64,000 bases of DNA from Cutibacterium porci (GTDB lineage: Bacteria; Actinomycetota; Actinomycetes; Propionibacteriales; Propionibacteriaceae), in NCBI RefSeq assembly GCF_009696315.1, contig NZ_VUMG01000003.1, forward strand, positions 1-64,000, given 5' to 3'. This document shows positions 8,645-8,984 of this stretch, piece after piece. Position 1 is the first letter of the stretch; every line of letters begins with the position of its first letter. Both the position numbers and the translations under genes were made by a program. The notes under the pieces are model-generated. The model was not told the DNA's origin, ran no database searches, and saw only the letters and a list, made by a program, of their open reading frames with translations.

Positions 8645-8717
8645 GCGCTGCTAGCTCAATTGGCAGAGCAGCTGACTCTTAATCAGCGGGTTCAGGGTTC
8701 GAGTCCCTGGCGGCGCA
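8645..8717 (+). tRNA. tRNA-Lys (CUU)
   Basis: Cloverleaf by eye: acceptor GCGCTGC/GCGGCGC with one G-U pair, D arm GCTC...GAGC, anticodon stem GCTGA/TCAGC with loop CTCTTAA giving anticodon CTT, and T arm CAGGG-TTCGAGT-CCCTG. The discriminator is A8717; CCA is not fully encoded (CCC follows). The 3' half from 8682 lies in the prophage attachment core, so integration rebuilds an intact tRNA. Confidence 0.97.
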
Positions 8718-8984
8718 CCCACCATCGGGCCCCTCATCATCACGGTGAGGGGCCCGACCTGTTTCTATCCACTCCACAGGGACTCCACACGCCATCGCCC
8801 AGGCCATGACTACATGTCGCCGGGGCGCACTTACGCCGCGTTCAGCAGCGCTCACCGTATTGCGCGACACGCCGATAGTGCTCGCTAATTCACTCTGCTC
8901 CAGACCTGCATGTTCACGCGCCTTACGTAGACGGTCAGACCTATCAAACTCAGGAATTGAGAAGGTCCATGGCTGTGTTGTCAT
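8679..8984 (-). CDS. Phage immunity repressor, truncated lysogen form (attL inside its 3' end)
   Basis: The 101-aa protein has an XRE-type helix-turn-helix at about residues 16-72 (RLRKAREHAGLEQSELASTIGVSRNTVSAAERG). The last 13 residues (89-101, ...CAARDSNPEPAD) are encoded by the attachment core, antisense to tRNA-Lys. The stop TAA (8681-8679) is host sequence, the antisense of the anticodon loop. In the rebuilt phage attP the frame instead continues from attR (24610 downward) for 23 more codons, ending ...ARAA. The ATG at 8984 lies 7 nt after a TAAACT -10 element, so the mRNA may be leaderless. Divergent from the gene at 9074. By position and logic it matches repressors of integration-dependent immunity phages; function is inferred. 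Confidence 0.85.
   Translation of the reverse strand: MTTQPWTFSIPEFDRSDRLRKAREHAGLEQSELASTIGVSRNTVSAAERGVSAPRRHVVMAWAMACGVPVEWIETGRAPHRDDEGPDGGCAARDSNPEPAD
8682..8719 (+). repeat. attL core (38-bp direct repeat)
   Basis: It is identical to 24611-24648. The core starts at ATCAGCGGG in the 3' anticodon stem of tRNA-Lys and runs through the discriminator and CC. The flanking bases differ on both sides (A versus T on the left, C versus G on the right), which fixes the ends. On the minus strand it encodes the last 13 or so residues of the lysogen form of the repressor. Confidence 0.95.
8725..8760. terminator. Prophage-borne terminator after tRNA-Lys
   Basis: A 12-bp perfect stem TCGGGCCCCTCA (8725-8736) / TGAGGGGCCCGA (8746-8757) with a 9-nt loop is followed by CCTGTTT. 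It lies 8 bp after the tRNA and seems to replace the native tRNA terminator, which integration moved to 24656. It sits inside the repressor coding sequence, so it also encodes part of the repressor tail on the other strand. Confidence 0.7.

Follow-up and report, generated by a model that had tools for sequence, protein, structure and literature searches.

An attachment site inside the repressor gene of a 16-kb Cutibacterium-type prophage points to an integration-dependent immunity switch

Results

The prophage and its tRNA-Lys attachment site

The window, by which we mean the whole 64,000-nucleotide stretch that was analysed, carries a prophage of about 16 kb with genes for a terminase, portal, capsid-protease, tape measure, endolysin, holin and integrase. 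The capsid-protease and tape measure names were taken from matches with Gordonia phage Coeur and Curtobacterium phage Barebow, both of which show collinear partial matches to the prophage. The features that matter here are the following.

8682..24648: prophage from attL to attR, about 16 kb, placed by 38-bp exact end repeats, the empty attB in congeners and family matches
8645..8719, plus strand: host tRNA-Lys(CTT), called by ARAGORN
8682..8719: attL core, exact repeat, coinciding with repressor codons 89-101
24611..24648: attR core, exact repeat
8679..8984, minus strand: immunity repressor, short lysogen form of 101 aa (phrog_2328 transcriptional repressor, E 1.6e-31; Pfam HTH_3, E 2.4e-13)
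24539..24610, minus strand: viral repressor tail codons, from the in-silico join
23743..24549, minus strand: tyrosine integrase, 268 aa (PF00589, E 1.5e-19; start by inspection)
9068..9277, plus strand: excisionase/Cro-like HTH gene (phrog_66, E 1e-4; PF12728, E 2e-6)
8985..9067: intergenic region between the repressor and excisionase-like genes, presumed to hold the operator and promoters
8725..8757, plus strand: unbroken 14-bp hairpin (one G-U pair), 5 nt past the tRNA 3' end, in repressor codons 76-87 (GRAPHRDDEGPD)
24658..24694, plus strand: the host's own tRNA-Lys intrinsic terminator (hairpin and TTTTT), now on the far side of the prophage

At its maximal extent the exact repeat spans 38 bp (8682-8719 and 24611-24648), and the flanking bases just outside its two copies are not alike. 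This core is the 3' half of tRNA-Lys(CTT) and restores the whole tRNA at attL; as in systems of the mycobacteriophage BPs type, the 3' end of a host tRNA gene forms part of attB, and the gene stays intact after integration. The left flank (8300-8719) and the right flank (24649-25600) lie together on a single locus of about 3.4 kb in six of the eight other same-genus genomes in the set (G060, G061, G062, G064, G065 and G066). In G060 and G065 the alignment restarts at the very next base past the tRNA, in G064 a single alignment spans the junction, and G063 has the tRNA and matches some of the right flank at 70%. The adjoining flanks in these congeners represent empty attB sites, and the prophage therefore extends from 8682 to 24648.

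A megablast search of the prophage against 50,697 phage records returned only two records, each covering 2%. Because these records include no virion sequence of the phage, we infer attP by joining the two prophage ends in silico. Scanning viral contigs gave five loci, one of which matches the window at 100% identity over 10,804 bp; this contig begins at 24549 and hence comes without the repressor tail. In a scan of genome contigs with the integrase, the best 80 of 152 loci were 26-36% identical and none was actinobacterial by title.

Two reading frames for one repressor

In the lysogen, the repressor frame (8984-8679, minus strand) ends ...CAARDSNPEPAD-TAA, with antisense tRNA sequence forming the final 13 codons (GCAARDSNPEPAD). 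The stop codon (8681-8679) is host DNA and, going by the ARAGORN call, should lie opposite tRNA bases 35-36 (anticodon) and 37. The best matches of the protein are Gordonia Wizard-type immunity repressors (58% identity over 100 residues); it is 53.5% identical to the repressor of McGonagall. When attP is rebuilt by joining 8984-8720 and the core to the sequence from 24610 downward, the frame stays open for 23 further codons (KALGVVMAFRALSGHGERFARAA) up to a TGA at 24541-24539, and the resulting 124-aa protein ends HGERFARAA. These results bear out the initial annotation, which had set the 38-bp attL core within the 3' end of the repressor gene, the lysogen stop opposite the anticodon loop after 101 aa, and a 23-codon extension ending RFARAA beyond a rebuilt attP: the repeat proved both maximal and exact, the frame was re-read with the same outcome, and the join and translation were carried out.

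Integration would shorten the repressor from 124 to 101 residues and so drop RFARAA, an ssrA-like C-terminus of the kind described for the BPs type. The host tmRNA tag, AENTRTDFALAA, which ARAGORN matches to that of Propionibacterium acnes, in keeping with a Cutibacterium-type host, ends TDFALAA and has F-A-x-A-A in common with the repressor tail; the host genome contains two clpP genes. On the phrog_2328 profile, which has 128 positions, the 124-aa form reaches position 114 with 113.7 bits and the 101-aa form position 102 with 109.7 bits.

The integrase and the divergent early region

The integrase probably starts at GTG 24549, which gives 268 aa; an alternative TTG at 24597 gives 284 aa. By inspection, a Shine-Dalgarno-like GGAGAGAGG lies at 24565-24557, 7 nt upstream of this GTG. 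The putative ribosome-binding site and start of int thus fall within the repressor tail (24539-24567), and in the attP form the start shares bases with the final codons of the tail and with its stop. The protein ends VVMDAAA, a candidate ssrA-like C-terminus such as BPs-type integrases carry. Among the 50,697 phage records, its best matches are from 16-18-kb Gordonia phages and Curtobacterium phage Barebow (45-53% identity, with 48-53% for the small Gordonia phages), followed by Gordonia phage UmaThurman and cluster G mycobacteriophages at 43-44%.

After the in-silico join, int lies directly 3' of rep on the same strand, and rep is divergent from a Cro/Xis-like gene, the gene order of the BPs type. 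This excisionase/Cro-like gene is the first of the rightward early operon, and an excisionase-like HTH gene is also annotated in several relatives. Operator candidates are a near-perfect 18-bp palindrome over the excisionase start (9063-9080) and 12-bp direct repeats at the edges of the intergenic region (8987-8998 and 9075-9086); within the mismatch limits applied, the prophage yielded no further copies of these repeats, and no sigma-70-like promoter was found in 8640-9300.

Recurrence in phages and in prophages of the bacterial family

The repressor and integrase are homologous to those of described BPs-type members, and the annotated immunity repressors of the relatives adjoin int. In all seven phages first examined, the annotated repressor carries an antisense T-loop motif or tRNA-like core at its 3' end, as it does in 22 of the 27 phages whose repressor was read; some cores were missed by the first T-loop pattern and were placed by peptide motif.

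Within the bacterial family, an integrase relative (E <= 1e-40) occurs in 27 of 198 genomes, that of the window included, at 29 loci. Att pairs were sought at 25 of these loci, as a second, distant copy of the sequence 5' of int, with 3 to 40 kb, often a limited length, available on the downstream side of each and with L099, L112, L121 and L123 left out. Eight of the 25 gave a repeat, and only six of the 29 loci were kept in which a tRNA-type repeat lies inside an HTH-type repressor frame, the frames being picked by eye from length and HTH-like sequence. Two candidates were dropped, L103 for a 115-bp imperfect repeat that is not tRNA-like and L106 for having no clear repressor frame. The window prophage and the six loci compare as follows.

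Window prophage: lysogen end EPAD; viral end ERFARAA; att copies 16 kb apart
G067 (same genus, other core): QPSDP; SGTKLAA; 17.6 kb
G034: EPAD; GQAVAA; 15.5 kb
G111 (L098): EPAD; RLVKAA; 1.9 kb; looks like a remnant
G135: VRRSAN; GQTPAA; 38.7 kb
G028: RPMD; RVLRAA; 25.9 kb
G067, second locus (L124): ATQGL; ARSG; 40.4 kb; an exception that does not fit

The arrangement found again in these relatives, together with the empty attB sites in congeners, is more than would be expected by chance.

Several loci are unusual in themselves. G111 (L098, L147) has three copies of one tRNA-type core, at about 1.9 kb and 18.5 kb from the copy on the integrase side, and the second core carries a cut-short repressor end; this looks like a remnant beside another element. 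In G034 (L105, L154), the tRNA-Lys at attL has a complete counterpart some 100 bp beyond attR, and the target may have been a tandem tRNA-Lys pair. At L124/L159 (40 kb) and at L116/L164 (26 kb), attL is likewise spanned by a repressor, here one of a different type; one of the rebuilt tails has about 72 residues and ends RAA, the other about 130 and ends ARSG, and these may have an independent origin.

Terminal AA and the function of the tail

A 23-codon open frame is weak evidence by itself, and the case rests on the recurring AA terminus. Among phage repressors with a tRNA-like core, 15 of 22 end in AA compared with 4 of 159 other complete CDS of the same phage loci (Fisher p 1.8e-13), and the figure for rebuilt prophage repressors, window included, is 6 of 7 compared with 4 of 159 control CDS (Fisher p 5.4e-8); both p values are too small, since these are related phages with some near-identical tails (Camster and Brujita, Liefie and Angel, GRU3 and McGonagall, in part Obliviate and MintFen); between groups the tails look unrelated. 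The phage count stood at 10/17 at first and reached 15/22 with five more. The non-AA tails end AS (Barebow, Liefie, Angel), VA (Phayonce, Typha), PA (UmaThurman) and AK (AGM16). The count omits Gusanita (AA), PensacolaC28 (VE), Nyceirae (AA), JustASigh (PA) and Whack (DS), in which no tRNA-like core was recognised, as well as prophiT36-2a (L206), whose repressor runs past the end of the record. The integrase ends in AA at five of six att-paired family loci, at seven of the 23 remaining family loci, and in the window.

By our own estimate, it is not unusual for GC-rich DNA to hold an open frame of 23 codons, and the tail sequences vary widely across phage groups. Both points would suit an incidental overlap, in which neither repressor form is unstable or inactive and the tail of 23 residues is an unselected read-out to the next stop. 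We consider this unlikely, since the differing tails converge on a terminal AA that matches the host tag, Int also ends AAA, and the BPs tail is reported to be a degron (PMC4557955).

The tail could instead serve mainly to couple the translation of int, whose ribosome-binding site and start it contains, with AA as a by-product of the overlap; GTG 24549 does overlap the R-A-A-stop codons, and rep and int overlap by 4 bp in Liefie, Angel and Jambalaya. However, in the AA-ended Coeur, EricDab, SallySpecial, Emperor, Rahul, McGonagall and Camster, rep and int are offset by 15 to 326 bp. Because these offset relatives keep AA, the ending can exist without the overlap, and coupling as the main role of the tail is very improbable, even if coupling and degron roles are compatible. 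Least credible of all is that the long form escapes degradation and works as a distinct isoform during establishment, for instance through altered oligomerisation: both BPs forms are reported to bind operator DNA similarly in vitro, but the long one to be inactive through targeted degradation (PMC4557955), and the recurring AA/AS ends suggest a protease signal.

A hairpin within the repressor coding sequence

In phages with the core, rep points towards the tRNA, and transcripts reading through from the tRNA would therefore cross rep in antisense and enter the divergent operon. A hairpin comparable to the host's own terminator at 24658-24694 lies 3' of tRNA-Lys in all four of the same-genus loci folded, with a T run in three. 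Across 29 phage and prophage systems, 19 have an unbroken stem of at least 10 bp (G-U allowed) just past the tRNA end, in the direction of the tRNA. The stems are 10-16 bp long and differ in sequence with pairing kept, and several pair types occur at each stem position. The background frequency in 55-nt windows of the prophage, Coeur and Barebow is 1.2-2.1% for stems of at least 10 bp and 0.28-0.45% for those of at least 12 bp. One other unbroken stem of at least 12 bp is found on the plus strand of the prophage, at 17706-17737, at the start of the 17680-18093 ORF.

When the 55 nt beyond the tRNA end, positioned to within about 12 nt, were folded in 23 systems, 16 had z < -3 relative to dinucleotide shuffles; Liefie, Angel, Typha, L098, L104, L116 and L124 did not reach this value. 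A stem recheck of the family loci above -3 found a 12-bp stem in L098, which is included among the 19, and none in L104, L116 and L124. Six further systems were surveyed for stems only: AGM16 has one of 16 bp and TillyBobJoe one of 10 bp, with none in Redi, Obliviate, MintFen and Brujita. In Doucette, where attP lies outside rep, no strong hairpin was found beside the core, although this is one control only.

We suggest that the hairpin is a phage-supplied terminator for tRNA-Lys that insulates the lytic operon. Integration moves the host terminator 16 kb away, and the embedded hairpin would take its place, shielding the rightward lytic operon from tRNA read-through. If so, a single 124-codon gene would hold at least five overlapping functions, namely a DNA-binding repressor, the opposite-strand 3' end of tRNA-Lys (attP), an ssrA-mimicking degron, the start of int and, in its linker codons, the hairpin as replacement tRNA terminator, the last being an undescribed component of many such systems. 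We put this forward tentatively. By title or abstract start among the matches listed, we found no description of such an embedded terminator in the open-licence literature.

It is about as likely that the hairpin at 8725-8757 is no terminator, being a by-product of an acidic Pro-Gly linker and GC-rich codons or a protein-binding dyad near attP. Synonymous recoding bears on this from both sides. None of 500 recodings of the window hairpin was as stable; in 16 of the 19 systems tested z was -1.4 or lower, so that they lean the same way, whereas control windows do not (mean -0.26, n=58). Yet only four of the 19 fell singly at or below 5/500, recodings as stable were fairly frequent in Coeur (25 of 500), SallySpecial (42) and Rahul (41), and z was positive in Liefie, Angel and Typha. 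The conserved linker (APxPDGDG and the like) recurs, most systems have a weak T tract (3-4 T), and the 10 of 29 systems that lack a stem of at least 10 bp (Brujita, Redi, Obliviate, MintFen, Liefie, Angel, Typha, L104, L116 and L124) also speak for a by-product. Against it stand the unbroken 10-16-bp stems maintained despite differing sequences and with varied pair types, the hairpin of EricDab with a quite different linker, and the 16-bp stem of AGM16, which ends GGTTTT followed by CTTC. As the T tract, GTTTC, antisense to conserved Glu-Thr codons, is mostly weak, a protein dyad or a function in the rep transcript at the mRNA level would fit as well.

Discussion

It is very likely that this prophage of about 16 kb in a Cutibacterium-type host possesses an integration-dependent immunity switch of the kind known from mycobacteriophages BPs and Brujita. 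The initial annotation had proposed such a switch here, and we agree with it: at the level of sequence, the main hallmarks that would be expected are present. In the virion genome, rep and int would form a single unit in which rep encodes the 124-aa repressor. The end of this viral form, ...RFARAA, may mimic the host ssrA tag, ...DFALAA, and lead to removal by a ClpXP-type protease and hence to lytic growth; Int, which ends DAAA, would likewise be short-lived. Where Int persists, it would recombine attP, within rep, with attB at the 3' end of tRNA-Lys and so cut off the rep tail. The tRNA anticodon loop would then supply the stop, and a stable 101-aa repressor would build up, shut the divergent lytic operon and confer immunity, while int, now at attR, would lose its promoter and with it its expression.

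In BPs, attP is reported to lie in rep with int 3' of it, the viral repressor is longer and has an ssrA-like end, and Int is tagged as well (PMC4557955; PMC9262239). The systems of BPs and Brujita (clusters G, I, N and P) share with the prophage an attP core in the 3' end of rep, a tRNA attB, and the tagged viral repressor and Int. However, the records of cluster G, I, N and P mycobacteriophages that we retrieved are 41-49 kb long compared with about 16 kb here. The repressor is 39-45% identical to those of clusters G and P, and Int is 44% identical to that of cluster G and 30-31% to those of cluster P and Brujita. The hairpin found here is lacking in Brujita and in the two cluster G phages tested (Liefie and Angel). 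Furthermore, the review of BPs-type systems describes no recombination directionality factor as evident (PMC9262239), whereas an excisionase-like gene (9068-9277) is present here and is a possible departure from the BPs type. Integration that needs no arm-type sites is a further mark of that type.

Closer in size are the small temperate Gordonia phages (McGonagall, GMA5 and GRU3 of cluster CW; Coeur, Emperor, SallySpecial, EricDab and Rahul), which also have 16-18 kb, attP in the repressor gene and an embedded hairpin, in another host genus. Gordonia cluster CW phages (17.1-17.7 kb) are reported to be temperate and to use the same system, with a 37-bp attP matching a tRNA-Lys attB (PMC5559632). 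The core peptide RDSNPEPAD is common to the prophage, EricDab, SallySpecial, Emperor, McGonagall, GRU3 and GMA5, but the structural proteins of Coeur are only distant from those of the prophage (32% for TerL, 27% for the portal). Curtobacterium phage Barebow (18.3 kb) has a similar gene order, a capsid-protease fusion and an embedded hairpin, with identities of 41% for the portal, 45% for Int and 48% for the repressor; it differs in its repressor tail (RRAS), its Int end (AIAS) and its core sequence.

For the Bifidobacterium prophages Bb423phi2 and 689b-1 (18 kb), integration in a tRNA gene is reported to remove 18 ssrA-like-tagged C-terminal residues of the repressor (PMC6109161). These prophages use tRNA-Met where ours uses tRNA-Lys, and the likeness is drawn from the published description rather than from sequence. 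The Propionibacterium freudenreichii phages Doucette, B22 and Anatole are described as temperate, with a tRNA attB in Doucette and B22 and attP upstream of int, and the term "integration-dependent" is absent from the main text of that paper, which also reports C. acnes phages to be without lysogeny functions (PMC5831693). Their host belongs to the same bacterial family, but their repressor gene lies away from attP.

The suggestion in the initial annotation that such a switch had not been described for a Cutibacterium-type prophage of this size thus needs qualifying. No report of integration-dependent immunity in Cutibacterium appeared in the open-licence literature, by title or abstract start among the matches listed; the principle and the size class, on the other hand, are already published for Gordonia cluster CW and for Bifidobacterium. 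The switch is known in principle and is well supported here.

Our findings place a probable protease-timed lysogeny switch in a Cutibacterium-type lineage and in other Propionibacteriaceae-type genomes, with the same tRNA-Lys reading-frame trick used in hosts of different families. The viral repressor tail copies the final residues of the host tmRNA tag, which makes tag mimicry testable. Phages integrating in tRNA genes generally face the problem of read-through from the tRNA into the lytic operon. Should the embedded hairpin act as a terminator, it would account for a prophage lying head-on to an active tRNA gene without read-through switching on its lytic operon.
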